Virus record (IMG/VR): IMGVR_UViG_3300011114_000945
Location: 1 to 22,749 of that record
Strand: one strand, 5' to 3'
DNA length: 22,749 nucleotides
DNA from: a virus
Shown here: positions 3,038 to 22,711 of the stretch, in pieces
Numbering within the stretch: the first letter of the stretch is position 1
Layout of the letters: the number at the start of each line of letters is the position of its first letter
Program-made: the position numbers and the translations under genes
The notes under the pieces: model-generated
Told to the model about the DNA's origin: nothing
The model's database searches: none
What the model saw: the letters and a program-made list of their open reading frames with translations, nothing else

Positions 3038-3856
3038 ATGAGTAAATTAGTCTTTGTAGTTGAAGACGATAAAGACTCTACAGCCGATAGTGAACTTAAA
3101 AAATCAATAAGTAAACTATCTAATCTCGTCTTAGCTAAAGATGGTAAAAACGTATCTTACGGTCTTGAATACGATAGATGTTTCGCGTTTGGTCGCATTC
3201 CATTTCTATCTGATTTTTATTGTAATGTTAGATATGGAACTTTAGACCTTCATTATAAATCCTCTGAATGCTATTATCATAACTGCTTTAGATATACAAA
3301 AAGTTTAGAGTTGTTTAAAGAAAATCATATTAACTCAGACCATTTCTCTGTAACCCCAATCGAAGATTTACTAAAAAATAAATGGGATTTTTACAGAATA
3401 TATGCAGAAGAAGCCAAAATATTCGTTAGACCTGATTCTACATATAAATTATTTAATGGTGGATTATTTGATATAGAAGATATTGATAGAGAATTCGAAA
3501 GTATTGACGTATTTAAAGATACTATTTGCGTTGTTTCAAGTCCTAAAAAAATTAGGGCTGAATGGAGACTTATTTGCTCTAGCGAAAAAGTCGTTACTGG
3601 GTCTTTGTATCTATACCAAGGTCTTCGGGCTCTAGTTAAAGGTTATCCTCCTGCTGTTGAGAAATTAGCTAAATACGCTATTGACAAAATAGGTAAATTT
3701 CCTATGATGTTCGTAGTTGATATCTGCTTAATGGAAAGCGGAGAGTATAAAATAGTAGAATTGAATCCAATTAATTCCGCTGGACTTTATGCATGTGATA
3801 GAGATAAAATTGTAGAAGAAATTATTAGAAATTATGACCTCACTAGCTCAGACTAG
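3038..3856 (+). CDS. ATP-grasp domain protein, R2K-like clade
   Basis: 272 aa. The C-terminal half has the pattern of R2K-type ATP-grasp enzymes: IFVRPDSTYKLFNG near residues 128-141, EWRLICSSEKVVTGSLY near residues 175-191, and VVDICLMESGEYKIVELNPINSAGLY near residues 226-251, where the Asp, Glu and Asn would bind Mg-ATP. The clade is known from phages and is predicted to ligate an amino or carboxyl group onto peptides or proteins; the substrate here is unknown. The N-terminal ~110 residues are less conserved. The last 23 bp overlap the RNA ligase gene, implying coupled translation. Confidence 0.72.
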   Translation: MSKLVFVVEDDKDSTADSELKKSISKLSNLVLAKDGKNVSYGLEYDRCFAFGRIPFLSDFYCNVRYGTLDLHYKSSECYYHNCFRYTKSLELFKENHINSDHFSVTPIEDLLKNKWDFYRIYAEEAKIFVRPDSTYKLFNGGLFDIEDIDREFESIDVFKDTICVVSSPKKIRAEWRLICSSEKVVTGSLYLYQGLRALVKGYPPAVEKLAKYAIDKIGKFPMMFVVDICLMESGEYKIVELNPINSAGLYACDRDKIVEEIIRNYDLTSSD

Positions 3857-9822: not shown

Positions 9823-10815
9823 ATGTCAAAAATTGCATCAATTGAAATCATTTCGTCTTTAGTCAAACATCCTAATCCAGAAGTTAATACATTATCTATT
9901 GCTACTGTTTTGGGATGGGAAGTTGTTGTAAAAACCGAATGTTACAACGTCGGCGATAGAGTCGTTTTCATTGAACCTGATTCGGTAGTACCAGAGATTC
10001 CTGAATTCGAATTCATGCGTAAATGCGGATTTAGAGTTAGGACCGTTAAGTTCAAAGGGTATCCATCTAATGGCCTATGTGTTCCCGCTAAAGAGCTATC
10101 TAGATTTAATCTTGATAATATCTATGTAGGAGAATCTGTAGCTGAATTAATTGGGATTAAACATTATGAGAAGCCAATTGCTATTGTTCCCGGAGAAGCC
10201 AAGGGTAAATTGCCATCTATCGTAAAGAGAACTGATGAAGATAATCTTAGGTCCACTCCAAGAGACTATCATCTTCTTGTTGGTAAAGAGTGCGTTATAA
10301 CAATGAAAATGGATGGCCAAAGCGCAAGTTTCTTTACCAAAGAAGGACAATTTGGAGTATGCTCTAGAGAATTAGAAATTAAAGAATCTGACAATTCTAA
10401 ATTTTGGATACTTGCTAGAAAATATGATATTGAAAGGAAAATGCTAGCTTTGAATAAAGATTTCGTAATTCAGGGCGAAAGCGCCGGTCCCGGAATTCAA
10501 GGTAATAGTTGTGGGTTAGAGACTAATCAATTATTCGTATTTAATGGACTCGAAAATCTTAAATACTGGAATCATGACCAGCTTTTTGATTTCTGTAAAG
10601 CTGTAGATATTCCAACCGTACCTGTTCTATGGAGAGGAATTTTTAATTTCACAATTAAAGAACTTCAAGAAATGGCTAATGACTTGAAATATCCAAGTGG
10701 AAATTTAGCTGAAGGTATTGTTATTCGTCCAGTCATTGAGAGTTTTGATTCTTCTGGTAGCAGACTATCTAAAAAAGTCGTTTCGGATGTTTTTAAGATA
10801 AAGAAGAAAGAATAG
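9823..10815 (+). CDS. Rnl5/DRB0094-like RNA ligase
   Basis: 330 aa. A ~110-residue N-terminal domain (KTECYNVGDRVVFIEPDSVVP, typical of this family) precedes the nucleotidyltransferase domain: motif I TMKMDGQSASFF with the predicted AMP-accepting Lys162, motif III FVIQGESAGPG around Glu219, motif IV EGIVIRP around Glu297, and motif V SDVFKIKKKE with Lys325 and Lys327 at the very C-terminus. This matches the Deinococcus DraRnl (Rnl5) group, which seals 3'-OH/5'-PO4 nicks in duplex RNA and differs from the Rnl1-type ligase at 3834. Two ligases of different specificity suggest sealing of more than one kind of RNA break. Start ATG lies after an A/T-rich leader. Confidence 0.82.
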   Translation: MSKIASIEIISSLVKHPNPEVNTLSIATVLGWEVVVKTECYNVGDRVVFIEPDSVVPEIPEFEFMRKCGFRVRTVKFKGYPSNGLCVPAKELSRFNLDNIYVGESVAELIGIKHYEKPIAIVPGEAKGKLPSIVKRTDEDNLRSTPRDYHLLVGKECVITMKMDGQSASFFTKEGQFGVCSRELEIKESDNSKFWILARKYDIERKMLALNKDFVIQGESAGPGIQGNSCGLETNQLFVFNGLENLKYWNHDQLFDFCKAVDIPTVPVLWRGIFNFTIKELQEMANDLKYPSGNLAEGIVIRPVIESFDSSGSRLSKKVVSDVFKIKKKE

Positions 10816-12869: not shown

Positions 12870-12940
12870 GGGGAGGTCGTCTAATAGATAGGACAAAGGC
12901 CATGGGGCCTTAAATGGTGGTTCAAATCCATCCCACCCCG
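12870..12940 (+). tRNA. tRNA, Pro-like anticodon (TGG or GGG), aberrant anticodon arm
   Basis: Acceptor GGGGAGG/CCACCCC with one A-A mismatch, D-stem GTCT/GGAC, T-stem GGTGG/CCATC with a normal TTCAAAT loop, discriminator G. The anticodon arm is one base short: AAGG/CCTT encloses CCATGGGG, an 8-base loop if only four pairs form. Either reading (TGG after A33, or GGG after T33) gives a Pro anticodon, but C72 and G73 are not typical of bacterial tRNA-Pro. A canonical tRNA-Pro(TGG) exists at 19269, so this copy may be degenerate or specialised. Confidence 0.5.
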
Positions 12941-12950
12941 ATATTTTCTT

Positions 12951-13021
12951 GCAGGTATGATGTAATGGTAGCCTGAGAGTTTTCCAAACTTTATGCGCGG
13001 GTCCGATTCCCGCTACCTGCT
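12951..13021 (+). tRNA. tRNA-Gly(TCC)
   Basis: Acceptor GCAGGTA/TACCTGC, D-loop AATGGTA with the normal GG, anticodon arm AGAGT-TTTCCAA-ACTTT (anticodon TCC), T-stem GCGGG/CCCGC with loop TCCGATT, discriminator T. CCA is not encoded. Confidence 0.88.
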
Positions 13022-13030
13022 TTTTAGTTT

Positions 13031-13101
13031 GCGGTATTAATTTAATAGTAGAATTCGTGATTGCCATTCACGGAGCGTCGGAGCGTTACCGACATACCGC
13101 A
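13031..13101 (+). tRNA. tRNA-Gly(GCC) with variant T-loop
   Basis: Acceptor GCGGTAT/ATACCGC, anticodon arm CGTGA-TTGCCAT-TCACG (anticodon GCC), T-stem GTCGG/CCGAC enclosing AGCGTTA in place of TTCRANT. The D-loop has TAATAGTAG, with AG where GG is normal. Discriminator A, no encoded CCA. The same AGCGTTA loop recurs in the second tRNA-Tyr and tRNA-Phe. Confidence 0.8.
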
Positions 13102-13851
13102 CATGGGCCGCGTTCGGTCCTTCAAAATAAACCAACGCAAGTTGGCGAAAGTGAGAGCTGGTTACAAGCTTTTGCCCCATAGCAATATGGGAGAGAACGC
13201 AAGCACAACGGATAAAGTAATCATGTAAGAAATGGTTACGCTGAACTAATCAGGCAATGACAACGGAGAAGTCTCTTAGTCGTGCCGCTTGATAAACGGC
13301 AAGTTGCAATCAACTGAAAGTTGAGTCCGCTAAGTGTAGGGTTATTAGATTGAGCCTTGTAAGCAAAATCTGTTATCCAGATGATTGAAAAAGTTCGCGT
13401 TTAAAAGCGTGAACTAAATTTCAAGTAGTCGTCGCGCTGACAAACAGCGGGAATCAAGATGCGATGTATTTTTTCTTCCAAAAGAAGAGAAAGCGTCTGG
13501 TGACGCGCATCTTAGTGATAAATATATGTCATTATATCAAAGCAAAAGTCGTCACTGACATTGCAGGAAAGACGTTTAATTCTCCACGCTTCGGCGAATG
13601 GAGACTTAGGATAGCTCGCAAGGCTATAATAAGTTTGTAAGTGGTTTGTTAGTAAGCGCCCGCAGCGCATAATAGCCCGCAAGGTTAGCTAATGAATATT
13701 TACTGAGTACTGTAATGGACACTAGTTTAGCTCATGACTAGTATAAAATAGCAACGTTGACACATACGCCTAAAAAGCGTGGAAATGAAACTAACCAATA
13801 AGGTTTCTAAAGTGTGTTATCAAAGGTATATTCTCAGCCTCTTCTCTTCTT
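13102..13851 (+). ncRNA. Large structured non-coding RNA, GOLLD/ROOL-like candidate
   Basis: A 750-base stretch between two intact tRNA genes without any plausible reading frame on either strand, and visibly richer in G/C than the genes around it. It is packed with strong hairpins: CCAAC-GCAA-GTTGG (13132-13145), CCCATA-GCAA-TATGGG (13176-13191), GCCG/CGGC (13284-13300), TCAAC/GTTGA (13310-13324), GTTCGCG/CGTGAAC (13393-13414), a long-range AAGATGCG/CGCATCTT pair (13456-13513) competing with GCGTC-TGGT-GACGC, TCTCC..CGC-TTCG-GCG..GGAGA (13581-13604), ATAGC/GCTAT (13611-13627), ACTAGT/ACTAGT (13721-13742) and ACGC/GCGT (13766-13780). Several are capped by GNRA or UUCG loops. Size, density of stable loops and placement inside a phage tRNA array are those of the large ornate RNAs GOLLD and ROOL. 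I cannot match their conserved sequence from memory, so it may also be a new class. Strand is inferred from the tRNAs. Confidence 0.6.
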
Positions 13852-13923
13852 AGGCAGTTGATGTAACAGCTAGCATGAATCTCTCCAAAAGATTTTGCAA
13901 CGGTGCGAATCCGTTACTGCCTG
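13852..13923 (+). tRNA. tRNA-Trp(CCA)
   Basis: Acceptor AGGCAGT/ACTGCCT, D-stem ATGT/GCAT with loop AACAGCTA (AG instead of GG), anticodon arm AATCT-CTCCAAA-AGATT (anticodon CCA), T-stem AACGG/CCGTT with loop TGCGAAT (G55), discriminator G as usual for Trp. It reads UGG only, so it does not suppress TGA. Confidence 0.88.
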
Positions 13924-13984
13924 ACTTTTTGGATTTTACGTAGGACTTTTTGAAGTGTGCGCGTGATTTCCTGCTGATTTAAAT

Positions 13985-14752
13985 ATGATTCCTAAAATTT
14001 TTCATACTACGTGGCGAAGCATGTTAGATTTAACTAATCGTCGAATTAAACTAATAGATACGGAAGAGGAAATATCATTAGCTAATTGTGTCGATACGTT
14101 TCATAAGAGGAATCAAGGATGGGAATTCAAATTCCATGATGATGCAGCTATAGATAATTTATTTGAAGAAGAATATCCTTTATTTTATCCGTTCTTTAGG
14201 AAGTTGAAGATAATTGAAAAGGTAGATTTGTTTAGATATGCTTGTTTGTATAAATATGGTGGTCTTTTTATTGACCCTGATTGTATTTGTGTAAGACCGC
14301 TAGATGAGTTTGTCGCTCTATTCCCAGACGCTAAAATCATCGTTGGCACTGAGTTTCAACATCTTAGCAATTGGTTCTTTTATCCTCCTCACAAGCAAAT
14401 AAATCTTTGGTCTATTTTCTCTTCAAGAGAGAATCATCACATGAGGAATATATTAGGAGCTGGAATTGGAAATTGTTTAATGAATCCTCAAATGCCTGTT
14501 ATTGAAAAGACTTCGATGGCTTTGTTTGGTGATTATTTATACAAGGCTGCTAAAATAGACGATTCAATTAAAATTGTCGCTGATAGTTATCTTTCGATGG
14601 ATGGACGCTTTAAATATATGCATGAAGATAGTTATGGTATAAAAGATTATTTACCCGCTTATATTTTACATGCTTATCATAGTTCGTGGATTGATGATGA
14701 TTTTCGTAAGTATGCTAAAGAAATGGAAAATCGGGATAATCTTATAAGATAG
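13985..14752 (+). CDS. GT32-like (OCH1-type, DXD) glycosyltransferase
   Basis: 255 aa. MIPKIFHTTWRS at the start and DLFRYACLYKYGGLFIDPDCICVRPLDEF around residues 77-105 are the signature of the DXD sugar-binding family (Gly_transf_sug), in which DPDC supplies the metal-binding acids. Members are cytoplasmic or Golgi-like glycosyltransferases building polysaccharide side chains; in phages they probably modify surface glycans or virion proteins. The C-terminal LHAYHSSWIDDDF is also typical. It sits between tRNA-Trp and tRNA-His on the same strand, with a TTTAAATATG leader like the upstream operon genes. There is no signal peptide. Confidence 0.8.
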   Translation: MIPKIFHTTWRSMLDLTNRRIKLIDTEEEISLANCVDTFHKRNQGWEFKFHDDAAIDNLFEEEYPLFYPFFRKLKIIEKVDLFRYACLYKYGGLFIDPDCICVRPLDEFVALFPDAKIIVGTEFQHLSNWFFYPPHKQINLWSIFSSRENHHMRNILGAGIGNCLMNPQMPVIEKTSMALFGDYLYKAAKIDDSIKIVADSYLSMDGRFKYMHEDSYGIKDYLPAYILHAYHSSWIDDDFRKYAKEMENRDNLIR

Positions 14753-14758
14753 TGTTAT

Positions 14759-14833
14759 GTCCTATGTATCTTAATTAGTTAAAGATTTCGATTGTGAATC
14801 GAAAGAATGCGGGTGCGAATCCCGTCATAGGAC
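14759..14833 (+). tRNA. tRNA-His(GTG)
   Basis: Acceptor TCCTATG/CATAGGA with the His-specific extra G-1 (14759) facing C73. D-stem TCTT/AAGA with loop AATTAGTTA (AG), anticodon arm TTCGA-TTGTGAA-TCGAA (anticodon GTG), T-stem GCGGG/CCCGT with loop TGCGAAT (G55). The intact G-1:C73 pair makes the identity secure. Confidence 0.9.
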
Positions 14834-14839
14834 CATTAT

Positions 14840-15240
14840 GGGCGTGTACTGGTTTCGATTAAAAGTTGGTAATGAAATTACGTCTCATGTCGAGGATTGT
14901 TGTTTGCCTCGTAAAAAATCAACTAAAAAATTAACTGCTAAAAACATTAATTCGGTTGTCAGTGGTATTGATGCGTTGCTTGCCAAGGCTAACAAGGTTG
15001 TTGCCGCTCGTAAGTCCGCCGCTGTCTTCGCCTAATCGGTGAAGCTAGATGTAATTGATTCTCAATAAATTACATTGATTTTTTTTTGAGAAAAGACCCT
15101 GTTCCAGTAAAGCTAATTGGATTTGAGTTAATAAAAGGTTGTTTGTTACCATATTGATTCTAAAAAGCGAAAATAAACTAAACATGTAAAGCGGGTTTAG
15201 TTAGATTTTTAAGACGCAAGTTCAACTCTTGCCACGTCCA
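14840..15240 (+). ncRNA. ssrA: tmRNA with a 32-residue tag
   Basis: The ends form the tRNA-like domain: GGGCGTG (14840-14846) pairs with CACGTCC (15233-15239), followed by discriminator A; the T-arm is GCAAG-TTCAACT-CTTGC. ACTGGTTTCGA near the 5' end and CTAAACATGTA near the 3' end match other tmRNAs. Pseudoknot 1: CGAGG/CCTCG (14891-14911) with GTTG/CAAC. A pseudoknot follows the tag: ATGTAAT/ATTACAT (15049-15075) with TTCTCA/TGAGAA (15059-15092). The resume codon is most likely GCT at 14937, giving a tag that starts AKNINSVV and ends AAVFA before TAA at 15033-15035. It rescues stalled ribosomes and marks the product for proteolysis. CCA is not encoded. Confidence 0.92.
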
Positions 15241-15282
15241 GCTCTTTATTTCAGAATTCCGCTCGTGTCCATTGGTTTATTA

Positions 15283-15288
15283 GTGTAA
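15283..15288 (+). promoter_or_regulatory. GTGTAA start-proximal motif
   Basis: GTGTAACTAAGATT begins 17 bases before the ATG of the HNH gene at 15300. The identical 14 bases precede the minus-strand endonuclease gene at 17016. Confidence 0.4.
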
Positions 15289-15299
15289 CTAAGATTGTA

Positions 15300-15887
15300 A
15301 TGAAGACTATTTTAGTTAAATGTAATAAATGTGGAAAAGATATTCAGAAGTCTAAATATGAATATGATAGAAGAATAAGATTAGGTAAAAATAAATTCTA
15401 TTGTAACAATAGCTGTTCATCTTTAGATAACGAGGTATTAAGGAAAAATGTAAGTTTTGCAAAAGAAAATCCTCAATCTTTTTTACAAGTCGCTAGAAAA
15501 AGCGAAAAATATAAAAAATTCTACGAAAAGAAAAAAGAAGAAAAAAAATTCCAATTATTTAAAGAATTTGTTAGAAGAGCTAAGATGAGAAATGTAAAAA
15601 GTAATAAAGGATGTGATATTACATTTGAATTCTTAAAAGAGCTATGGTTTGAACAAAAAGCTATTTGCCCTTATTCAAAAAGAAATATGACTTTAGATGA
15701 AAGTGAGAATACTTCTCCAAGTACAGCTTCTTTGGATAGGATAGACTCTTCTAAAGGCTATATAAAAGGTAATGTAGAATTTGTCTGTTTATCAGTAAAT
15801 TTTGCAAAGTCAGATTTTACTAAAAATCAGATTTTAGAATTTTTTGATACAAATTCAAAAGAAAATTTAATAGAGTACCTTATCTAA
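15300..15887 (+). CDS. HNH homing endonuclease (free-standing)
   Basis: 195 aa. An N-terminal zinc-finger-like segment (CNKCGKDIQKS ... FYCNNSCSS, residues about 8-40) is followed by a basic linker and a C-terminal HNH-like core, ICPYSKRNMTL ... SLDRIDSSKGYIKGNVEFVCLSVNFAKSD, in which DR-I-S-GY-GNV is the fold seen in many phage HNH enzymes. Such enzymes cut intronless target sites and spread their own gene; tRNA arrays are frequent targets. It lies between the tmRNA and tRNA-Ile, with the GTGTAA motif in front. Lysine-rich composition is typical of these mobile genes. Confidence 0.78.
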   Translation: MKTILVKCNKCGKDIQKSKYEYDRRIRLGKNKFYCNNSCSSLDNEVLRKNVSFAKENPQSFLQVARKSEKYKKFYEKKKEEKKFQLFKEFVRRAKMRNVKSNKGCDITFEFLKELWFEQKAICPYSKRNMTLDESENTSPSTASLDRIDSSKGYIKGNVEFVCLSVNFAKSDFTKNQILEFFDTNSKENLIEYLI

Positions 15888-15906
15888 TATAAATAAATTT
15901 ATTCAT

Positions 15907-15977
15907 CGTCCTTTAGCTCAAAAGCAGAGCGTTCGACTGATAATCGAAAGAAGATGGCGCGATACCATCATGGACGA
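15907..15977 (+). tRNA. tRNA-Ile(GAT)
   Basis: Acceptor CGTCCTT/ATGGACG with one T-T mismatch, D-stem GCTC/GAGC with loop AAAAGCA (AG), anticodon arm TTCGA-CTGATAA-TCGAA (anticodon GAT), T-stem GATGG/CCATC with loop CGCGATA (G55), discriminator A. Confidence 0.82.
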
Positions 15978-15986
15978 ATTTTTAAC

Positions 15987-16051
15987 GCCCCTAGAAAGTT
16001 CCGGTACGTCTTTTGTAAAGATGTCAGCGGGCTGCGATGCTCGTAGGGGCT
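15987..16051 (+). tRNA. tRNA-Thr(TGT), reduced D-arm
   Basis: Acceptor GCCCCTA/TAGGGGC is perfect and the anticodon arm CGTCT-TTTGTAA-AGATG gives anticodon TGT. T-stem CGGGC/GCTCG encloses only six bases (TGCGAT). Just 13 bases separate the acceptor from the anticodon stem, too few for a normal D-arm, and the gene is 65 bases long, as in mitochondrial-type armless tRNAs. It may be minimal or degenerate. Confidence 0.55.
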
Positions 16052-16057
16052 TATTAT

Positions 16058-16142
16058 GGGATGCTAGTTTAATTGGATAAAACACCAGACTGTCGCTCTG
16101 GATACCGAAAGGTTTATACGGATTCGAGTTCCGTGCATCCCG
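16058..16142 (+). tRNA. tRNA-Asp(GTC) with hairpin in the variable loop
   Basis: Acceptor GGGATGC/GCATCCC, D-stem GTTT/AAAC with loop AATTGGATA (GG), anticodon arm CCAGA-CTGTCGC-TCTGG (anticodon GTC), T-stem ACGGA/TCCGT with loop TTCGAGT, discriminator G, all as in tRNA-Asp. The variable region is 16 bases instead of 5 and contains ACC-GAAA-GGT, a GNRA mini-hairpin. The convergent endonuclease gene ends inside the 3' part of this tRNA. Confidence 0.85.
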
Positions 16143-17016
16143 AGATTAATGGTTTTATTTGTTGTTCGTAAATAGGTTTTAAAAAATCATTCATATCTCC
16201 TTTAACGCCCATAATATTAATTTGGAAAAAGTGAAGTTTTAATTCCTGAAGTTTTTGCTTCTTTATTATATCTTTATTCTTTGTCTTTGTTAGTTCCGGT
16301 TCTCCAAAGATTGGTATATAATGACATGGACCATTTAGTTCAATCGCTATTTTTTCGCTTGGTATTAAAACATCTATTTCTAAGCCATCTAATATTTTTC
16401 TATCATTTTCGATGACGATAAGTTCTGGAAAATCAGATTTAATTATATTGACTAGTATAGTTTCAGCTTTGCTTTTATTTACTCCAAATCTAGAACTTTT
16501 GTTAAAAGTCCTATTGCCGTATGAGGCATGGCAAGAGCGACTACAAAATATGTATTTATTGTGTTCTATTTGATATGGTGATTTTTTACATTCGGATGAG
16601 CAATTCATGCATTTTACAGTTTCAGTTTTTTTATATCTAGTAGAACCACCTTTTATTTTCAGAGCTCTAGTTCTGCATTTTAAATTTATTAATATAGGTT
16701 TTCTATTTCTATTGTTGTAAACTGCCGAGCATTTGCTACTGCAAAAATAATTATCATTTTGATTTTTTTCGTGAACGTATCTTGAAATTGGTTTGTTACA
16801 TTCTTTACATTGGGTATTGAACGAGCTATTTTTGACTCTAAATTGGTGAAAACAATTTTTGTTACAGAATGCTCCATTATTACCTCCTAGTTTAAGATTA
16901 TATTTGTAATCTTTTAGTTTTAGGGTGTAATCATCATTACAGTTTAGACATTTTAGTTTTACTGGGTCAAACGTTTTTAGTTTAGCTAATTCTTCTTCGG
17001 TACTAATTAGTATCAT
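16114..17016 (-). CDS. Zinc-finger plus Vsr/DUF559-like nuclease, putative homing endonuclease
   Basis: 300 aa on the minus strand. The N-terminal 170 residues contain repeated CxxC zinc-binding pairs (CLNCND, FCNKNC, CKECNKP, FCSSKC, CMNCSSEC, FCSRSC), about three treble-clef-like units for DNA binding. The C-terminal domain, KSKAETILVNIIK ... GLEIDVLIPSEKIAIELNGPCHY ... KNKDIIKKQKLQELKL, has the E-x(n)-D-x(n)-ExN-H layout of Vsr-like/PD-(D/E)xK nucleases, as in EDxHD homing endonucleases. It starts at the ATG after GTGTAACTAAGATT and its last codons read through the 3' end of tRNA-Asp, so stop and tRNA overlap by about 29 bp. Confidence 0.7.
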   Translation of the reverse strand: MILISTEEELAKLKTFDPVKLKCLNCNDDYTLKLKDYKYNLKLGGNNGAFCNKNCFHQFRVKNSSFNTQCKECNKPISRYVHEKNQNDNYFCSSKCSAVYNNRNRKPILINLKCRTRALKIKGGSTRYKKTETVKCMNCSSECKKSPYQIEHNKYIFCSRSCHASYGNRTFNKSSRFGVNKSKAETILVNIIKSDFPELIVIENDRKILDGLEIDVLIPSEKIAIELNGPCHYIPIFGEPELTKTKNKDIIKKQKLQELKLHFFQINIMGVKGDMNDFLKPIYEQQIKPLISGCTELESV

Positions 17017-17024
17017 AATCTTAG

Positions 17025-17030
17025 TTACAC
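17025..17030 (-). promoter_or_regulatory. GTGTAA start-proximal motif
   Basis: On the minus strand GTGTAACTAAGATT ends directly at the ATG of the zinc-finger nuclease gene (motif start 14 bases before the ATG). Confidence 0.4.
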
Positions 17031-17064
17031 CGAATCCGTTTTAATCAGTAAATTTAATAATTTT

Positions 17065-17316
17065 ATGAAGCTTAAATATTCACACAAAGATATTCACGAT
17101 AAGCTAATCGAAAATAAAAAAACTTTCGCTTTGGTTTACTCAAATGTCCTTGAATCTGGATTTGGTTGTGACACTATTATCTTGTCTGACAATATTAAAG
17201 AGATTCGAGAAAATCTTTTAAAGTTAATGGATAAGACTGGAAATCATTTCCATTCTATAGATGTAAGAATTGTTAGAAGCTATCATATAGATGCGATTGA
17301 AAATATTAATAAATAA
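17065..17316 (+). CDS. Hypothetical protein (83 aa)
   Basis: Small alpha/beta protein (start MKLKYSHKDIHDKL) with no recognised motif, divergent from the zinc-finger nuclease gene. The leader ends TTTAATAATTTTATG with no Shine-Dalgarno. No signal peptide or membrane span. Confidence 0.55.
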   Translation: MKLKYSHKDIHDKLIENKKTFALVYSNVLESGFGCDTIILSDNIKEIRENLLKLMDKTGNHFHSIDVRIVRSYHIDAIENINK

Positions 17317-17358
17317 ATCTTTTCTATTTCTTGGATTGAAGATGTAATTAAAATTGTT

Positions 17359-18486
17359 ATGTCAATGCAATGTTTACATTTGACCCCATGGATGCACGGG
17401 CCATTTTTATATACGGGTTCCCTAACAGGTTTAAATATGACTGGTAGATGGAACATAAACGCAATGCCTGCTCAATCTGGATTTATTTTGAATATTTGTT
17501 CTAGTGGCTATGGATATACCACTGGTGTAAATAGATATGAAACTGGAGTGTGTAGGTATTACCAATCTGGAACTGGATATGGACAAAAAGTATTAAGCAG
17601 AATGTTCATCTCTCCACCTTTAGATAGCGGTAAGCTATTACAGGACATCCTTTATTCTGGAATGATTCCTTGTACTTCTAGAGGCTCTTCTACTGAAACA
17701 GGTTATTTTAGTTTACATGGCTACATGTTGATTATGGGCTCTGGAGGAAACGTAAAAGCTACTTTAGCTGAATTTAATGGAACTAGAACTTTTAGCTCTG
17801 GATTCAGAGAAGAAGAAATACCTCAAAATTATACAGATGTATCTTATACTACTCAACTTGGAGATAGATTAGTAGTTGAATTAGGCGCTAAAAGTCTAAA
17901 TACAAATACTGGATGGAAGAGATTTCAAACTGCTATTTCGAGTTTTGACAGCGACACAAGAACTTTAAGTCCTTATCCCCTTGATATAAATAATTTACCT
18001 CCGTATGTGCCCCCTAACCCATCTTTCGAAGATATACTTAAAAGATATGATATTCCATATACTCCATTATGGGACCGAAACGGAGACGATGGTTCATTAG
18101 TGATTACTGCCGATATGATTGATGATATTCTCGGTGTCGAAAAGCCGCCAACTCTTTATACAGAAATAACATCAGATAAATATGGATATAATCATTATGT
18201 TGCTGGCACTGGCTCTTACGAAGGAGATTCGTATTCAGTTAATTCTTCTGTAAGCGGAGATTATCTTGCCGCAGTTAGAACAATAACTACTGATGCGTAT
18301 GCTATCCAAAATGGAATGCGAACTCCTAAAGATTCTGAGTTTATAACCACTGGAAAACAAGGTGTAGGCGCTGTTACCTATGTAGGAAATCCATGGTATG
18401 AAAATGTATCAGAATTATATTCGTATGCGAATGCAAGTCCGGATGCTGGTGCGTCTGTGACAATGAAATTTAAGAGAAAGCGTTAA
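17359..18486 (+). CDS. Unidentified 375-aa protein, possibly virion-associated
   Basis: Rich in Gly, Ser, Thr and Tyr, with several GYG/GTG turns, and poor in Lys until the KFKRKR end; this differs from the Lys-rich endonucleases around it. The first 200 residues look like beta-sandwich material (TGSLTGLNMTGRW, TYTTQLGDRLVVELGAKS); the phrase GDRLVVELGAK resembles domains of phage tail and neck proteins. A Pro-rich linker (LPPYVPPNPSF, near residues 213-223) leads to a second region. No signal peptide. A strong terminator follows 20 bp after the stop, so it is the last gene of its transcript. The structural role is inference from composition only. Confidence 0.65.
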   Translation: MSMQCLHLTPWMHGPFLYTGSLTGLNMTGRWNINAMPAQSGFILNICSSGYGYTTGVNRYETGVCRYYQSGTGYGQKVLSRMFISPPLDSGKLLQDILYSGMIPCTSRGSSTETGYFSLHGYMLIMGSGGNVKATLAEFNGTRTFSSGFREEEIPQNYTDVSYTTQLGDRLVVELGAKSLNTNTGWKRFQTAISSFDSDTRTLSPYPLDINNLPPYVPPNPSFEDILKRYDIPYTPLWDRNGDDGSLVITADMIDDILGVEKPPTLYTEITSDKYGYNHYVAGTGSYEGDSYSVNSSVSGDYLAAVRTITTDAYAIQNGMRTPKDSEFITTGKQGVGAVTYVGNPWYENVSELYSYANASPDAGASVTMKFKRKR

Positions 18487-18508
18487 AAAATAGTTTGGTA
18501 AAATAAAG

Positions 18509-18536
18509 CGATATGCGTGATACGTATATCGTTTTT
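18509..18536 (+). terminator. Rho-independent terminator
   Basis: CGATATGCGT-GAT-ACGTATATCG forms a 10-bp stem with one G-T pair, followed by five T at 18532-18536. It ends the 17359 gene and separates it from the next tRNA group. Confidence 0.85.
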
Positions 18537-18541
18537 ATTAT

Positions 18542-18614
18542 GGGCTGGCATGTGCCAAGGTGGCGAGAGACACTTGCAATGTTTCTGTGGTGAGTTCGAT
18601 TCTCATCTGGTCCA
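18542..18614 (+). tRNA. tRNA-Ala(TGC)
   Basis: Acceptor GGGCTGG/CTGGTCC contains the G3-T70 wobble that is the main identity element for AlaRS, with discriminator A. Anticodon arm AGACA-CTTGCAA-TGTTT (anticodon TGC), T-stem GTGAG/CTCAT with loop TTCGATT. The D-arm pairs poorly (GCCAAGGTGGC), so the fold there is uncertain. Confidence 0.72.
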
Positions 18615-18643
18615 AATTTTATAATTAGATGAAGGCAACGAAA

Positions 18644-18714
18644 AATGAAATGGTGTAACGGTTAGCATACCGGCATGTCCGCCGAGGGAATTAGTTCAAT
18701 TCTAGTTTTTGCTT
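18644..18714 (+). tRNA. Degenerate tRNA-Asp-like (GTC)
   Basis: D-arm GTGT-AACGGTTA-GCAT and T-stem ATTAG/CTAGT with loop TTCAATT are clear. The anticodon stem CGGC/GCCG encloses only ATGTCC (six bases, GTC after T33). The acceptor AATGAAA/TTTTGCT has one mismatch and two wobbles. It may be a decaying gene, since a better tRNA-Asp is at 16058. Confidence 0.45.
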
Positions 18715-18851
18715 TTCGATTGATGTAGTAAGTAGTTATAAAAGGGCTCGCTTTTTTAGGTGCGCCTAGCTATATATGAGACAAACGACTCGTGAGTACG
18801 GCAGGAAAACGAGGAACCCCAATCATGTGAAATCCTCAAAAAAGCTATTTC
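18715..18851 (+). other. Spacer with unassigned hairpins
   Basis: No gene or canonical tRNA found. TAGCT/AGCTA could close a ~90-base fold containing GAG/CTC, CGT-GAGT-ACG and GAGGA/TCCTC hairpins. It may be another degenerate tRNA-like or small RNA; no further support. Confidence 0.25.
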
Positions 18852-18932
18852 GGGCGTTAAGACTAATGGTGGTCGCCTGACTGTAAATCAGGTAATCCGC
18901 ATGGATAAGCAGTTCGATTCTGCTAGCGCCCA
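18852..18932 (+). tRNA. tRNA-Tyr(GTA), copy 1
   Basis: Acceptor GGGCGTT/AGCGCCC, D-loop with GG, anticodon arm CCTGA-CTGTAAA-TCAGG (anticodon GTA), a long class II variable arm with TCC-GCAT-GGA, T-stem AGCAG/CTGCT with standard loop TTCGATT, discriminator A as expected for Tyr. Confidence 0.9.
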
Positions 18933-18940
18933 TTTTTAAT

Positions 18941-19020
18941 CCGAGGGTAGGAATTATATTTTAGTAAACCGCTCGTTATTCCGGTGACGAGAATAGTTAG
19001 CGCAAATCTAACCCCGAGGG
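18941..19020 (+). tRNA. Aberrant tRNA-like gene, identity unclear
   Basis: T-stem GTTAG/CTAAC with loop CGCAAAT (G55), followed by CCCGAGG, G73 and an encoded CCA. The 5' partner CCGAGGG pairs at five of seven positions with a tandem G-A mismatch in the middle. The D region is 22 bases (GG..TTA/TAA..CC) with TTTTAG, and the anticodon stem CTCGT/ACGAG encloses ten bases (TATTCCGGTG). No anticodon can be chosen safely (TCC, CCG or TTC). Confidence 0.45.
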
Positions 19021-19029
19021 CCATTTTAT

Positions 19030-19102
19030 GCCCAATGAGACGGCTAGTGAAGTCGTTCCTCTGCAAAAGGAAAATTGCTTGGCGCAAAACCAAGATTGGG
19101 CT
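19030..19102 (+). tRNA. tRNA-Cys(GCA)
   Basis: Acceptor GCCCAAT/ATTGGGC, D-loop with AG, anticodon arm TTCCT-CTGCAAA-AGGAA (anticodon GCA), T-stem CTTGG/CCAAG with loop CGCAAAA (G55). Discriminator T73 is the Cys identity base, which supports the call. Confidence 0.87.
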
Positions 19103-19186
19103 AAATTTATCTTGCCAATTGAGTCTCAAATGTGTAAGATATTGTAAGTAGTAGATTATGTGGTGAAAGAAACATATAATTTATCG

Positions 19187-19260
19187 TGCGGTTGGGAGGC
19201 GAGTGTCTTGACCAGTCTCATAAGCTGTGTTTAGCGTGGTTAAACTCCACGATGCCGCAA
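19187..19260 (+). tRNA. tRNA-Met(CAT)-like
   Basis: T-stem CGTGG/CCACG with loop TTAAACT, anticodon loop CTCATAA (anticodon CAT) on an imperfect stem with a bulge, D-stem GAGG/TCTT, acceptor TGCGGTT/TGCCGCA with one T-T mismatch, A73 and an encoded CCA. Could be elongator Met, initiator, or lysidine-type Ile; the irregular stems leave this open. Confidence 0.55.
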
Positions 19261-19268
19261 CCATTTTT

Positions 19269-19342
19269 CAGTCCGTAGCCTAACTTGGTAAGGCGCTACA
19301 TTTGGGGTGTAGAGATTGCGAGTTCAAGTCTCGCCGGGCTGA
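19269..19342 (+). tRNA. tRNA-Pro(TGG)
   Basis: Acceptor CAGTCCG/CGGGCTG (C1-G72, A73 as in bacterial tRNA-Pro), D-loop AACTTGGTA (GG), anticodon arm CTACA-TTTGGGG-TGTAG (anticodon TGG), T-stem GCGAG/CTCGC with loop TTCAAGT, encoded CCA at 19343-19345. Confidence 0.92.
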
Positions 19343-19353
19343 CCATTTTTCAT

Positions 19354-19475
19354 TGCTAAGTCGTTCAAAAGTAGGACCTTCGGTTGTGGGCCGCAAATAA
19401 GAGCTTAATAGAGAGTGAAATTCTCAAAAGGCCAAGAATACCCGAATGATACTCGTGCGAGTCGAGTCTTAGCAG
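19354..19475 (+). tRNA. tRNA with ~51-base insertion in the anticodon loop
   Basis: Outer parts are sound: acceptor TGCTAAG/CTTAGCA (7 of 7), D-stem GTTC/GGAC with loop AAAAGTA (AG), T-stem ACTCG/CGAGT with loop TGCGAGT (G55), discriminator G. TTCGG (19379-19383) pairs perfectly with CCGAA (19442-19446), followed by a 4-base variable loop TGAT, which makes these the anticodon stem. The loop between them is 58 bases and contains GGCC/GGCC and GAGA/TCTC helices. An alternative is anticodon stem TTCGG/CCGCA (four of five pairs, loop TTGTGGG, GTG) with a ~54-base variable region. The insert is too small for a group I intron. The final anticodon is undetermined. Confidence 0.6.
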
Positions 19476-19517
19476 ATTAACAAAAAGAAGTTATTCATAC
19501 TTTGAGTGCAAGTTCTA

Positions 19518-19523
19518 GTGTAA
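19518..19523 (+). promoter_or_regulatory. GTGTAA start-proximal motif
   Basis: GTGTAATAACTT begins 15 bases before the ATG at 19533. Confidence 0.4.
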
Positions 19524-19532
19524 TAACTTAAA

Positions 19533-20291
19533 ATGAGTAATTCAGAATCGGTTAAACGTTGGAGAAAAAGTACTAAATCTAGAATTGTTGAAGCATTTGG
19601 TGGGAAATGTGGAGTTTGTGGATATAATAAATGCCAAGAAGCTTTAGAGCTACATCATTTAGACCCAGAGAAGAAGCATTTTTCATTAGGTTCTATTAGA
19701 GCAAATCCAAAAAATTGGGATTATATAGTAAATGAAATTAGGAAATGTGTTATGATATGCTCTAATTGTCATAGAGAACTACATAATAATTTAATAAAAC
19801 TTGATGATAATATAGTTAAATTTAATGAAGATTTTAGCTGTTTTAAAACCGTGAAGGCTTCTGAGAAGATTAAATCATTGACAGATTCTTGTCCATTTTG
19901 TAGCGGATTAAAAAACACTTGGAGTAAAACCTGTTTTGACCCAAATTGTAAAAGACAGCTTATAGGTAGTTATAATTGGAATAATTTTGATTTAAGAAAG
20001 ATGTTTATAGAAGAAGGAAAATCTTTTAGTGAAATATCTAAAATAGTTGGCTGTTCTGACGTGGCTGTAAAAAAGAAATTAATTAAAGATGGCTTATGTT
20101 CTCCATTCTTTAAAAGAAAATTAGTTAATTGGCCTAGTAATGAGTATTTAGAAGAGAATCTTAAAACTAAATCTATGCTTAAAATCTCACAAGAGATAGG
20201 GTGTTCTTTTAATGGCCTTAAAAAATATTTAAAACAAAACGAAATACGTTACGATACCAGACATTCTTGGAAAAAAAGAAATATGATTTAA
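19533..20291 (+). CDS. HNH homing endonuclease with C-terminal HTH repeats
   Basis: 252 aa. The N-terminal HNH/zinc core is CGVCGYNKCQEALELHHLDPEKK ... CVMICSNCHRELHN (residues about 26-90), with catalytic HH and two CxxC zinc pairs. A second Cys cluster (CPFCSG ... CFDPNC, residues ~115-140) follows. Two helix-turn-helix-like repeats, FSEISKIVGCSDVAVKKKL and MLKISQEIGCSFNGLKKYL, end the protein and probably read the target DNA. It lies between the insertion-bearing tRNA and tRNA-Asn, and is a likely mobile gene targeting the tRNA array. Confidence 0.8.
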   Translation: MSNSESVKRWRKSTKSRIVEAFGGKCGVCGYNKCQEALELHHLDPEKKHFSLGSIRANPKNWDYIVNEIRKCVMICSNCHRELHNNLIKLDDNIVKFNEDFSCFKTVKASEKIKSLTDSCPFCSGLKNTWSKTCFDPNCKRQLIGSYNWNNFDLRKMFIEEGKSFSEISKIVGCSDVAVKKKLIKDGLCSPFFKRKLVNWPSNEYLEENLKTKSMLKISQEIGCSFNGLKKYLKQNEIRYDTRHSWKKRNMI

Positions 20292-20295
20292 TATT

Positions 20296-20368
20296 TTGGG
20301 AATAGTGTATACAATTAGCACAGTAGACAGTTAATCTATAAGACAGGGTATCAAATCCCGTTCCTGAA
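20296..20368 (+). tRNA. tRNA-Asn(GTT), unusual loops
   Basis: Acceptor TTGGGAA/TTCCTGA, D-stem GTGT/GCAC with loop ATACAATTA (no GG), anticodon arm GTAGA-CAGTTAA-TCTAT (anticodon GTT, but A33 instead of the near-universal T33), T-arm centred on GGG/CCC with loop TATCAAAT, A73 and encoded CCA (20369-20371). Confidence 0.7.
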
Positions 20369-20384
20369 CCATTTTAGTAATAAT

Positions 20385-20459
20385 GTTGCCGAATGCAAAG
20401 AGACGAGCGATTAATTTTTCAAATTAATATTTTAGTGGGTGCGAGCCCCACCGGCAATA
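20385..20459 (+). tRNA. tRNA-Glu(TTC)
   Basis: Acceptor GTTGCCG/CGGCAAT, anticodon arm TTAAT-TTTTCAA-ATTAA (anticodon TTC), T-stem GTGGG/CCCAC with loop TGCGAGC (G55), D-stem only TGC/GCG with a 10-base loop containing AG. A73 and encoded CCA. Confidence 0.78.
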
Positions 20460-20508
20460 CCAACCGCCCTTATCCGAGGCATGGGGAAACCTAATATCGG
20501 CGTTTAAA

Positions 20509-20590
20509 CGGCTATGAGTTCAACAAGTGTTGAAGGGAGTCTGTAAAACTTTCGCCTTCGGGACATGAGGAGCGTTACCTCGATAGCCGA
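20509..20590 (+). tRNA. tRNA-Tyr(GTA), copy 2, variant T-loop
   Basis: Acceptor CGGCTAT/ATAGCCG, D-arm TTCA-ACAAGTGT-TGAA (AG), anticodon arm GGAGT-CTGTAAA-ACTTT (anticodon GTA), class II variable arm with CC-TTCG-GG, T-stem TGAGG/CCTCG with loop AGCGTTA, discriminator A. It differs strongly from the canonical copy at 18852, so it is a separate lineage and not a duplication. Confidence 0.8.
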
Positions 20591-20595
20591 TTTTG

Positions 20596-20601
20596 GTGTA
20601 A
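20596..20601 (+). promoter_or_regulatory. GTGTAA start-proximal motif
   Basis: GTGTAACTTGAAT begins 15 bases before the ATG at 20611. Confidence 0.4.
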
Positions 20602-20610
20602 CTTGAATAT

Positions 20611-20988
20611 ATGAGACTTATTAAAACTTTTTCCGCTCTTGCTTTAGCCGCTCTTGTTACTTTTTCCGCTAAGGCTCAAAACGTCCTTCAGACTCCTACT
20701 CCAAGTGGTTTAGTTACATTGACTTGGGATTATCCAGTTAGCGAGTTGACTACAAATATCTTTTTCCATATTCGCGGTACTAATGTAAATACTGCAAATA
20801 AATCTACTTGGCCTGTCATTTCAACAGTAGTTGGAACAAATACAGCAGTCGTTACAATCGTTCCCGGTGAATATTATTTTACCGGCACTGCAAGTAATGT
20901 ATGGGGCCAAACTATCTATTTTAACGTAACAGCTACGCCAGCTCTTCCACGTTCTGACGTTACTGTTAGAATTGCGAAGATTCAATAA
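20611..20988 (+). CDS. Secreted Ig/FnIII-like small protein 1
   Basis: 125 aa with a clear signal peptide: basic MRLIK, a hydrophobic core ALALAALVTF and a likely signal peptidase I site after SAKA (AKA-Q). The mature part is beta-rich: VTLTWDYP at the start, TNIFFHIRGTN, YYFTGTASNVWG and a C-terminal DVTVRIAKIQ strand, the pattern of a single fibronectin-type-III-like domain. It is the first of three tandem paralogs and overlaps the next by one base (TAATG). The product is exported by the infected cell or carried on the virion; the role is unknown. Confidence 0.72.
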   Translation: MRLIKTFSALALAALVTFSAKAQNVLQTPTPSGLVTLTWDYPVSELTTNIFFHIRGTNVNTANKSTWPVISTVVGTNTAVVTIVPGEYYFTGTASNVWGQTIYFNVTATPALPRSDVTVRIAKIQ

Positions 20989-21368
20989 TGAAAAAGATAT
21001 TAGGTTTTTTTGTATCATTTTTATTACTTAGTCAATTAGTGTTTGGGCAACTTCAGACGACTAATTCATCTCTCGTTATAGGGTGGGATTATCCTACTTT
21101 AAATTTAGATACTAATATGGTATTTAATATTATCTCATTAAATGATAATAATAGAACCGTATTAAAGAGATTTAATTTCGATGGAGATTTATCTACTGAC
21201 GTTACCAATAATTCTAAATTTGTCAAATCTAGAGTTTTTATCGAACCCGGAACTAATAATATAATAGTAGTCGCTGAATTAAATTTAGTTAATTCTGAAG
21301 ATTCTAATATACTTAGACTTCCAGAAATAGCAAAACTTACCGTAATAAGAATAAAGGAGATAAAATGA
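20988..21368 (+). CDS. Secreted Ig/FnIII-like small protein 2
   Basis: 126 aa with signal peptide MKKILGFFVSFLLLSQLVFG, cleaved after VFG (Q follows). The mature region repeats the layout of its neighbour: SLVIGWDYP, TNMVFNIISLN, FIEPGTNNIIVVAEL, and the end KLTVIRIKEIK, closely parallel to the VTVRIAKIQ end of protein 1. It is translationally coupled to both neighbours (TAATG upstream, ATGA downstream). Sequence divergence from protein 1 is large apart from the framework residues. Confidence 0.72.
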   Translation: MKKILGFFVSFLLLSQLVFGQLQTTNSSLVIGWDYPTLNLDTNMVFNIISLNDNNRTVLKRFNFDGDLSTDVTNNSKFVKSRVFIEPGTNNIIVVAELNLVNSEDSNILRLPEIAKLTVIRIKEIK

Positions 21369-21685
21369 GAAGACTTTTATTCATGGTTATATTAACATTT
21401 ACGTTAGCTATTCTAGCTGAGACTTTACCAAAAGCTGTGGTAGCTTGGTCTTATCCAGAGCCAAGTACAAATAATGTTTTTAAAGTCTATAGAACTACAG
21501 ATGTTCCAGCTAATCCAACAAGATGTTGGACGGTAATTAAAGTAGTTTCTGGAATTGAAACTTCATGCGTTGTAGATTTAATTCAAGATAAACAAAATTA
21601 TTTTTTAGTAACTGTTAGTAATTCATGGGGAGAAAGTATGTTTTTTCAAAATAGATATATCACCCCAGTACAAGCTTTAAGATAG
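21365..21685 (+). CDS. Secreted Ig/FnIII-like small protein 3
   Basis: 106 aa. N-terminal signal peptide MRRLLFMVILTFTLAILAE, with probable cleavage after ILA. The mature part has VVAWSYP, NNVFKVYRTTD, QNYFLVTVSNSWGESMFFQ and two Cys residues (about 57 and 71) that could form a disulfide, absent in the other two. It has the best Shine-Dalgarno in the window (AAAGGAG six bases before ATG) and overlaps protein 2 by 4 bp. tRNA-Gln follows 8 bp after the stop. Confidence 0.72.
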   Translation: MRRLLFMVILTFTLAILAETLPKAVVAWSYPEPSTNNVFKVYRTTDVPANPTRCWTVIKVVSGIETSCVVDLIQDKQNYFLVTVSNSWGESMFFQNRYITPVQALR

Positions 21686-21693
21686 CGATTCAT

Positions 21694-21766
21694 TCCGGTG
21701 TGGAGTAATTAGTTAGCTCAGCAGACTTTGAATCTGTTAGTCTCCGTGCGAATCGGGGCACCGGGG
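21694..21766 (+). tRNA. tRNA-Gln(TTG)
   Basis: Acceptor TCCGGTG/CACCGGG, D-stem GAGT/GCTC with loop AATTAGTTA (AG), anticodon arm GCAGA-CTTTGAA-TCTGT (anticodon TTG), T-stem CTCCG/CGGGG with loop TGCGAAT (G55), G73 as expected for Gln, encoded CCA (21767-21769). Confidence 0.88.
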
Positions 21767-21771
21767 CCAAT

Positions 21772-21846
21772 GAACGTATGATGGAAATTAGAAAACCTAA
21801 ATCGCTCAAAACGATTTGACTGCAAGTGCAAGTCTTGCTACGTTCA
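21772..21846 (+). tRNA. tRNA with Leu anticodon (CAA), short variable loop
   Basis: Acceptor GAACGTA/TACGTTC is perfect. Anticodon arm AATCG-CTCAAAA-CGATT (anticodon CAA), T-stem GCAAG/CTTGC with loop TGCAAGT (G55), D-loop with TTAG and a weak two- to three-pair D-stem, A73. The variable loop is TGACT (five bases), whereas bacterial tRNA-Leu has a long class II arm. Confidence 0.75.
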
Positions 21847-21848
21847 CA

Positions 21849-22472
21849 TTAGTTATTAAGATTTAGTTGTGTAGGTTCTGCATTTTTTGATAAAATTATT
21901 TTATTAGAATCGTAGTTGTTCACAACTTTTCTACAGAATTCGATAAATTCTTCATGCGTCATGTCTGTTTTCGCCATATTTGCTCTTTTTGATGCTAAAC
22001 CGCAATTTTGCAAAGAGTTATCTCCTCCTCTTGAAGATGGGATGATATGGTCTAATTGATATGAATTTGGTTTAGTTAAATCTATTGGCTCGCCTGTTAA
22101 GTAGCATTTTGGATTTTCGCTAAACTTCTTGAGTATGTCGTCTATTGTAAATGTTTTTTCCATGTATATTCTTTTCCTTATTATTTTATAAGAGCAAAAT
22201 CTAGTTATTCTTGATGTTAAAATTCCTCTAATTTTATTTTTTGATATCTTTTCTTTACTTATATAGGATTTACTATTCAAAAAAGCATATAATTTATGTA
22301 AAATAGGATTATCTTTTCTACTTTCCCTTGTCCTTTCTAAATTTTTTTCTTTCTGATTCTTACTAAATAAATAAGAGATAGTTCCTTTCGAGCAGTTTAA
22401 TTCTTCGGATATTTTATTGTAACTTTTTCCTTCGTTCCTTAATCCAATAATTTTTTGTTGTAGTTTAGTCAT
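21849..22472 (-). CDS. HNH homing endonuclease with N-terminal HTH
   Basis: 207 aa on the minus strand. MTKLQQKIIGLRNEGKSYNKISEELNCSKGTISYLF is a resolvase-like helix-turn-helix. After a basic linker comes the HNH core: CYLTGEPIDL ... YQLDHIIPSSRGGDNSLQNCGLASKRANMAKTDMTHEEFIEFC, with the DH pair, GG-x-N and a final N-x-K helix as in Cas9/McrA-like HNH domains. A Shine-Dalgarno AGGAG lies 10-14 bases before the ATG and GTGTAA 30 bases before it. The gene ends 2 bp from tRNA-Leu(CAA) in opposite orientation. Confidence 0.85.
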   Translation of the reverse strand: MTKLQQKIIGLRNEGKSYNKISEELNCSKGTISYLFSKNQKEKNLERTRESRKDNPILHKLYAFLNSKSYISKEKISKNKIRGILTSRITRFCSYKIIRKRIYMEKTFTIDDILKKFSENPKCYLTGEPIDLTKPNSYQLDHIIPSSRGGDNSLQNCGLASKRANMAKTDMTHEEFIEFCRKVVNNYDSNKIILSKNAEPTQLNLNN

Positions 22473-22496
22473 TTTATTGAACTCCTATAATTTTTA

Positions 22497-22502
22497 TTAC
22501 AC
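22497..22502 (-). promoter_or_regulatory. GTGTAA motif upstream of the HNH gene
   Basis: On the minus strand GTGTAATAAAAATTATA precedes the AGGAG ribosome site and begins 30 bases before the ATG at 22472. The greater distance, with a ribosome site in between, suggests the motif is a transcription signal and not part of translation initiation. Confidence 0.4.
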
Positions 22503-22545
22503 TTAATTTGAACCTTTATTAAGTACGTAACAAAAAAATAAAAAC

Positions 22546-22618
22546 GGCTTCGTAATCCAAAAGAAGAGATAATAATTTTAAAAATTATAAAGTGCGGGTG
22601 CAAGACCCGTCGAAGCTA
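22546..22618 (+). tRNA. tRNA with Leu anticodon (TAA), short variable loop
   Basis: Acceptor GGCTTCG/CGAAGCT, D-loop AAAAGAAG (AG), anticodon arm ATAAT-TTTAAAA-ATTAT (anticodon TAA), variable loop AAAGT (five bases), T-stem GCGGG/CCCGT with loop TGCAAGA (G55), A73 and encoded CCA (22619-22621). Class I variable loop, unlike bacterial tRNA-Leu. Confidence 0.8.
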
Positions 22619-22637
22619 CCATTCTATTAAAACTTAT

Positions 22638-22709
22638 CCGGTTATAACATAAAAGTTTATGTGCTGGTCTGAAAATCCAGAAATATAGGAGCGTTACCTA
22701 TTAACCGGA
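22638..22709 (+). tRNA. tRNA-Phe(GAA), variant T-loop
   Basis: Acceptor CCGGTTA/TAACCGG, D-stem ACAT/ATGT with loop AAAAGTTT (AG), anticodon arm CTGGT-CTGAAAA-TCCAG with a T-T at the 31-39 position (anticodon GAA), T-stem ATAGG/CCTAT with loop AGCGTTA, A73 as in Phe, no encoded CCA. Confidence 0.83.
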
Positions 22710-22711
22710 CA

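Follow-up and report, generated by a model that had tools for sequence, protein, structure and literature searches.

A covarying A18/G55 elbow pair in natural tRNAs of a phage contig, other viruses and bacteria, and its possible role in reserve tRNA sets

At the elbow of tRNA, G18 stacks within the T-loop, where its partner is the pseudouridine at position 55 (Psi55), while G19-C56 closes the corner, and G18, G19, U55 and C56 are regarded as tRNA hallmarks across all domains of life (PMC7912444). Here, we describe a window of 22,749 nucleotides, comprising positions 1 to 22,749 of the IMG/VR record IMGVR_UViG_3300011114_000945 from a large tailed phage, in which 12 tRNA genes carry A18 and G55 instead. 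Suppressor tRNAs selected in Escherichia coli by Doyon, Zagryadskaya, Chen and Steinberg (in J Mol Biol in 2004) are said to have revealed a "specific purine trap", in which U55 needs G18 and G55 needs A18. The tRNAs described here follow the same 18/55 rule, but the suppressors were the products of artificial selection on a single suppressor tRNA, whereas these are natural tRNAs of most isotypes from both phages and bacteria. Searches of the open-access literature brought up no naturally occurring tRNA described as A18/G55.

Staphylococcal non-proteinogenic tRNA-Gly also has a changed D-loop GG and a changed T-loop, but this concerns a single isotype that is weak in translation by design and lacks the A18-G55 compensation. 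Phage tRNAs that evade host defences resemble those studied here in that they are altered relative to the host tRNAs and are thought to survive defence nucleases (PMC10264068, PMC11555353, PMC12409363). However, the published changes affect the loop or stem of the anticodon arm and the D-loop, or consist of dosage effects, and a text search of these 3 papers identified none that alters the elbow at 18-55. In Anabaena PCC 7120, the trn operon likewise provides an extra set of 26 reserve tRNAs, which are silent until translational stress and are tied to rtcB by co-regulation through a shared repressor in the TrcR regulon (PMC10272220), whereas the Verrucomicrobia arrays described below are located next to rtcB and are fully G55.

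The window tRNAs were re-parsed one by one by stem pairing and with the Rfam model RF00005, and a tRNA with a long insertion (19354-19474) was parsed by eye. A18-G19 with G55-C56 was identified in 12 tRNAs, nearly all of which had every stem paired (Table 1). These 12 tRNAs showed the cloverleaf of RF00005, with pairing in the acceptor, D, anticodon and T stems, and retained G19-C56, but the G18-U55 contact was replaced by A-G. G18-G19 with T55-C56 was observed in another 5 tRNAs, namely Asp, Ala, Pro (19269), Tyr copy 1 and an Asp-like tRNA, and the 2 Tyr genes provide an internal contrast, with copy 1 being canonical and copy 2 switched. These results bear out a sequence-only reading of the window, which had assigned the same tRNAs to the 2 groups and held that positions 18 and 55 change together while G19-C56 is kept, except that an aberrant gene at 18941 on its A18/G55 list has G55 but no clear D-loop. 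The 19 assignable tRNAs, a set that omits the unassignable tRNA-Thr (15986) and tRNA-Gly(TCC) at 12951, the latter with a G18/C55 combination absent from the sequence-only reading, consisted of 12 A18/G55, 1 A18/T55, 6 G18/T55 and no G18/G55 tRNAs (hypergeometric p ~3e-4). As for the exceptions previously suspected, the Pro-like gene at 12870 is a real one, having A18/T55 and lacking T33, but the Met-like gene has G18-U19 with T55-A56 and belongs to a class in which the 19-56 pair is switched.

The same coupling was observed in other viral tRNAs. ARAGORN was run on 3 contig sets chosen by T-arm patterns, from which the tRNAs that triggered the choice were excluded, and D-loops were classified by looking first for GG, then for AG and lastly for GA, a simple rule by which single cases may be wrong. 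The sample of 1,815 tRNAs from 205 contigs contained 63 A18/G55, 5 A18/T55, 1 G18/G55 and 1,643 G18/T55 tRNAs (Fisher p ~1e-107), and the 2 positions did not vary independently in this larger set. The A18/G55 tRNAs, corresponding to 3.5% of the viral tRNAs, were found in 28 contigs and covered 30 anticodons and 19 isotypes. With C56 fixed, G55 accompanied A18 in 63 of 68 cases, mostly with T54 and A58 and with G or A at position 57, as the purine trap is said to be defined. In viral tRNAs with T55, the 19-56 pair was G-C in 1,643, A-U in 40, U-A in 5 and C-G in 3 cases, and U19-A56 and C19-G56 also occurred in A18/G55 tRNAs; this covariation through all 4 Watson-Crick forms explains the Met-like exception in the window. 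The 54-58 pair was T-A in 1,739 and A-T in 53 tRNAs. The 3 elbow contacts, 18-55, 19-56 and 54-58, are conserved as pairs. The G18/C55 class was represented by 18 viral tRNAs and also by Ala, Asn and Thr tRNAs in 2 Patescibacteria genomes (G003 and G004).

We searched for the nearest canonical tRNA of each A18/G55 tRNA after masking the anticodon and base 55. The isotypes agreed for 36 of the 69 viral tRNAs, compared to 3.7 expected, and in the arrays for 11 of 23 and 16 of 25 tRNAs, compared to 1.4 expected for each. Matches this far above expectation indicate many separate conversions, and descent of all A18/G55 tRNAs from a single gene was rejected on this basis. Positions 8, 14, 15, 21, 33, 37, 53, 61 and 73 were nearly the same in A18/G55 and canonical viral tRNAs, although A57 was present in 41% of the former versus 17% of the latter, and A54-T58 was more common. 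The bacterial-array tRNAs differ from the core tRNAs of TAV2 (see below) at some further positions, such as 9, 14, 15 and 33, and the array Leu tRNAs retain a long variable arm.

Bacterial genomes were scanned with a G55 T-arm pattern. In 116 Patescibacteria genomes, the pattern had 60 matches in 47 genomes, compared to 6 matches for the reversed pattern, and 14 of the 30 loci inspected were tRNAs, 12 of which had A18. In the draft assembly G004 (Nealsonbacteria), A18/G55 was present in the sole Tyr tRNA and the sole Phe tRNA detected, as well as in 2 Gly tRNAs and 1 Met tRNA, and in the draft assembly G003 (Doudnabacteria) in the only Cys tRNA found and in 1 Met tRNA. Judging from these genomes, the A18/G55 tRNAs appear to be a working natural variant on which some cells rely, rather than a product of decay. 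One Nealsonbacteria tRNA (L551, G004:C6:9150-9400) has the anticodon TTA and would decode UAA stops. In 120 Pseudomonadota genomes, the pattern was about as frequent as the reversed control and none of the 29 loci inspected was a tRNA; many matches in Arthrospira look like a dispersed repeat.

Among the matches listed, a scan of bacterial genomes with this pattern, the counts of which are lower bounds, led to tRNA arrays in Verrucomicrobia, while none of 30 loci inspected among the Verrucomicrobiota matches outside the arrays was a tRNA. In the isolate Geminisphaera colitermitum TAV2, G55 was present in all 28 tRNAs of 2 arrays versus none of 26 dispersed tRNAs (p ~5e-16), the latter being all canonical and a sample of the core set. 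Six arrays, the 2 of TAV2 and 4 related ones, carried G55 in all 86 tRNAs detected, and each of these dense arrays adjoins a gene for the RNA ligase RtcB (L671, L673, L674, L440, L379, L452/L698). Genes for sigma-70, LysR and an uncharacterised protein of 180 residues were present in most copies of the locus. In a further array (L409), an unrelated RtcB is located inside the array, and in a viral contig (L297) RtcB is located about 3 kb from tRNAs of mixed elbow type.

The window, which also encodes a Dda-like helicase, ThyX and glycosyltransferases, contains about 22 tRNA genes from position 12870 to 22710, besides a GOLLD RNA and a transfer-messenger RNA (tmRNA). The genes of its 2 RNA ligases, of T4 types that are common in large phages, precede the first tRNA by 2 to 8 kb, and no match to RtcB was found in the window. 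A 172-kb phage relative (G001), the helicase of which is 55% identical, has a mostly non-canonical tRNA cluster at 137-150 kb and a canonical cluster of 4 tRNAs at 88-90 kb. A BLAST search with the window tRNA-His against phage records gave no match.

Table 1. Features of the window. Where 2 loops are listed, the D-loop is given before the T-loop.
Feature	Position	Strand	Details
T4 Rnl1-type RNA ligase	3834..4955	+	PF09511
Second RNA ligase	9823..10815	+	PF09414 with PHA02142 OB-fold
Pro-like tRNA, A18/T55	12870..12940	+	Lacks T33; one real exception to the coupling
tRNA-Gly(TCC), G18/C55	12951..13021	+	AATGGTA; TCCGATT
tRNA-Gly(GCC), A18/G55	13031..13101	+	AATAGTA; AGCGTTA; 54-58 also A-T; 4 stems fully paired
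GOLLD RNA	13456-13840		Between tRNA-Gly and tRNA-Trp; 204.9 bits, far over gathering score
tRNA-Trp(CCA), A18/G55	13852..13923	+	AACAGCTA; TGCGAAT; stems fully paired
tRNA-His(GTG), A18/G55	14760..14833	+	AATTAGTTA; TGCGAAT; stems fully paired; 62.1 bits to RF00005
tmRNA	14840..15243	+	tRNA-like part retains GG/TTC
tRNA-Ile(GAT), A18/G55	15907..15977	+	AAAAGCA; CGCGATA
tRNA-Asp(GTC), G18/T55	16058..16142	+	Canonical; small extra variable-region hairpin ACCGAAAGGT
tRNA-Ala(TGC), G18/T55	18542..18613	+	Canonical
Asp-like tRNA, GG/TTC loops	18644..18714	+	Canonical loops; acceptor stem poor
tRNA-Tyr(GTA) copy 1, G18/T55	18852..18932	+	Canonical
Aberrant tRNA-like gene, G55	18941..19019	+	T-loop CGCAAAT; acceptor unpaired; no clear D-loop
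tRNA-Cys(GCA), A18/G55	19030..19102	+	GCTAGTGA; CGCAAAA; stem-pairing parse; missed by both ARAGORN and Rfam
tRNA-Met(CAT), G18/T55, U19-A56	19186..19258	+	GCGAGTGT; TTAAACT; 19-56 pair switched
tRNA-Pro(TGG), G18/T55	19269..19345	+	Canonical
tRNA with long anticodon-loop insert, A18/G55	19354..19474	+	AAAAGTA; TGCGAGT; read by eye
tRNA-Glu(TTC), A18/G55	20385..20459	+	AAGAGACG; TGCGAGC
tRNA-Tyr(GTA) copy 2, A18/G55	20509..20590	+	AACAAGTGT; AGCGTTA
tRNA-Gln(TTG), A18/G55	21694..21769	+	AATTAGTTA; TGCGAAT; stems fully paired
tRNA with Leu anticodon CAA, A18/G55	21772..21846	+	AAATTAGAAA; TGCAAGT
tRNA with Leu anticodon TAA, A18/G55	22546..22618	+	AAAAGAAG; TGCAAGA
tRNA-Phe(GAA), A18/G55	22638..22709	+	AAAAGTTT; AGCGTTA

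Several tRNAs of the window, among them Cys, Ile, Glu and Tyr copy 2, were not detected by ARAGORN. The insertion-bearing tRNA has paired acceptor (TGCTAAG/CTTAGCA), D (GTTC/GGAC) and T (ACTCG/CGAGT) stems, and its anticodon stem TTCGG/CCGAA surrounds a long insert with internal pairing GGGCC...GGCC, which is either intron-like or an odd anticodon arm. The 2 tRNAs with Leu anticodons have short variable loops, whereas normal bacterial Leu tRNAs have a long variable arm. In a tRNA-Asn(GTT) at 20296-20368, the D-loop lacks both GG and AG, and the T-arm fits an eight-base loop (TATCAAAT). This tRNA may represent the other laboratory-selected elbow type, which needs a T-loop of 8 bases.

Our preferred interpretation, to which we give an even chance of being correct, is that A18-G55 is an equivalent elbow pair that became fixed in reserve tRNA sets, probably because it conceals these sets from enzymes that recognise or cleave the canonical elbow. 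The structural half of this interpretation, the compensated elbow already proposed in the sequence-only reading, is well supported, and the coupling, seen in bacteria as well as in 28 further viral contigs, the intact anatomy and the reliance of some host genomes on such tRNAs argue strongly for it. Purine 18 would still slot into the T-loop, where the purine trap places it between base 57 and the 54-58 pair, and pair with G55 instead of U55, in a geometry that we infer, while 19-56, 54-58 and G53-C61 would go on holding the elbow; since purine 18 would now pair with G55, positions 18 and 55 must change together. The swap removes the target of TruB (U55) and that of TrmH (G18, the site of 2'-O-methylguanosine, Gm18) and alters the T-loop sequence.

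The evasion half is a proposal. Enzymes directed at the elbow do exist: the T-loop tRNase CdiA-CT E479 cleaves between the conserved T and Psi (PMC9086364), base-specific D-loop contacts have been proposed for AriB (PMC12409363), and Cas12a3 grips the T-arm backbone (PMC12851939). Within a cell, the swap is the mark of spare tRNA sets as opposed to the core set, and the spare sets are accompanied by genes for RNA repair, from which we infer evasion. The swap is concentrated in reserve sets, namely the arrays of phages and the RtcB-linked arrays of bacteria, both of which provide additional tRNAs, where selection may have favoured a reserve that is unreadable to defence or toxin tRNases that recognise or cut the elbow, with the RNA ligases as a possible second line through tRNA repair. 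The resistance to a defence nuclease suggested in the sequence-only reading is compatible with these data and may gain support from the RtcB-linked arrays and the phage RNA ligases.

Several observations weigh against evasion in reserve sets. About half of the window tRNAs are canonical or of another variant and hence would not be protected alike. No A18/G55 was found among 197 tRNAs of 9 well-known phages, in which elbow swaps were confined to the 19-56 pair (phage G, Lak-A1 and GAP32), so the A18/G55 swap is not needed by phage tRNAs in general. The core A18/G55 tRNAs of Patescibacteria show that fixation is possible without a reserve role. The link between arrays and RtcB is only suggestive, since the 6 arrays represent mostly one related lineage and the comparison covers G55 arrays only.

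A broader proposal, which we regard as tentative and rather doubtful, is that the elbow is a switchable code, in which compensated changes at 18-55 (G-U, A-G and possibly G-C), 19-56 (G-C, A-U, U-A and C-G) and 54-58 (U-A and A-U) would keep the fold but disguise mobile and reserve tRNAs, letting them survive a putative class of tRNases or decay factors that attack tRNAs with the canonical elbow. It is slightly less probable, and on the whole unlikely, that A18-G55 is just an equivalent state reached by neutral compensatory drift in the fast-evolving tRNAs of phages and reduced genomes, with no selective purpose. The low frequency of the swap among viral tRNAs, where it occurs beside other compensated swaps (19-56 in 4 forms, 54-58 A-T), its presence in core tRNAs of Patescibacteria and the existence of the rare intermediates A18/T55 and G18/G55 are all consistent with drift, which competes seriously with the preferred interpretation where the cases are scattered, as in phages and Patescibacteria. 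However, drift is weakest for the fully switched arrays, which are hard to obtain next to all-canonical sampled dispersed tRNAs in the same genome, and the 12 of about 19 tRNAs in the window are far above the viral average, while other positions do not decay in step.

Independence from host modification offers a further, improbable explanation, namely that the elbow formed by A18-G55 is stable with no need for Psi55, Gm18 or TruB-assisted folding, which would be useful when many tRNAs are made fast. It is established that G55 cannot receive Psi55 and that A18 cannot receive Gm18, and loss of the Psi55 site is certainly a by-product of the swap. TruB, which was present in all 14 control genomes, was not found in 41 of the 116 Patescibacteria genomes, and G55 T-arm matches were somewhat more common in these (21 of 41, 51%) than in genomes with TruB (26 of 75, 35%). 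The difference was not significant (p = 0.11), and several genomes with A18/G55 tRNAs have TruB, including TAV2 with its fully switched arrays; neither loss of TruB nor the avoidance of TruB considered in the sequence-only reading is upheld as the cause of the swap. Moreover, the canonical tRNAs of the phage need the same help.

Far less probable is that the altered elbow serves sorting or regulation by shifting recognition by host factors (RNase P, the L1 stalk, the stringent factor or peptidoglycan transferases), thereby creating a special tRNA pool. Several such factors read the elbow, and the staphylococcal tRNA-Gly mentioned above is non-translational, but G19-C56, on which these factors stack, is mostly retained, all isotypes are affected, and Patescibacteria use such tRNAs as the sole ones found. 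That the genes are unexpressed pseudogenes or chance loop patterns can be dismissed despite the few degenerate genes in the window (Pro-like, the aberrant gene at 18941, Asp-like and Thr), given the nearly always fully paired stems, the coupling over 28 contigs and the sole tRNAs found in some cells.

The presence of whole natural tRNA sets with covarying elbow partners shows that what is constrained is the pairing, whichever letters form it. The A18/G55 tRNAs represent natural test pieces for the role of Psi55 and Gm18, and the swap may explain why some tRNAs are missed by gene finders. It also suggests that there may be a layer of attack and defence in which tRNAs are targeted at the elbow rather than at the anticodon.

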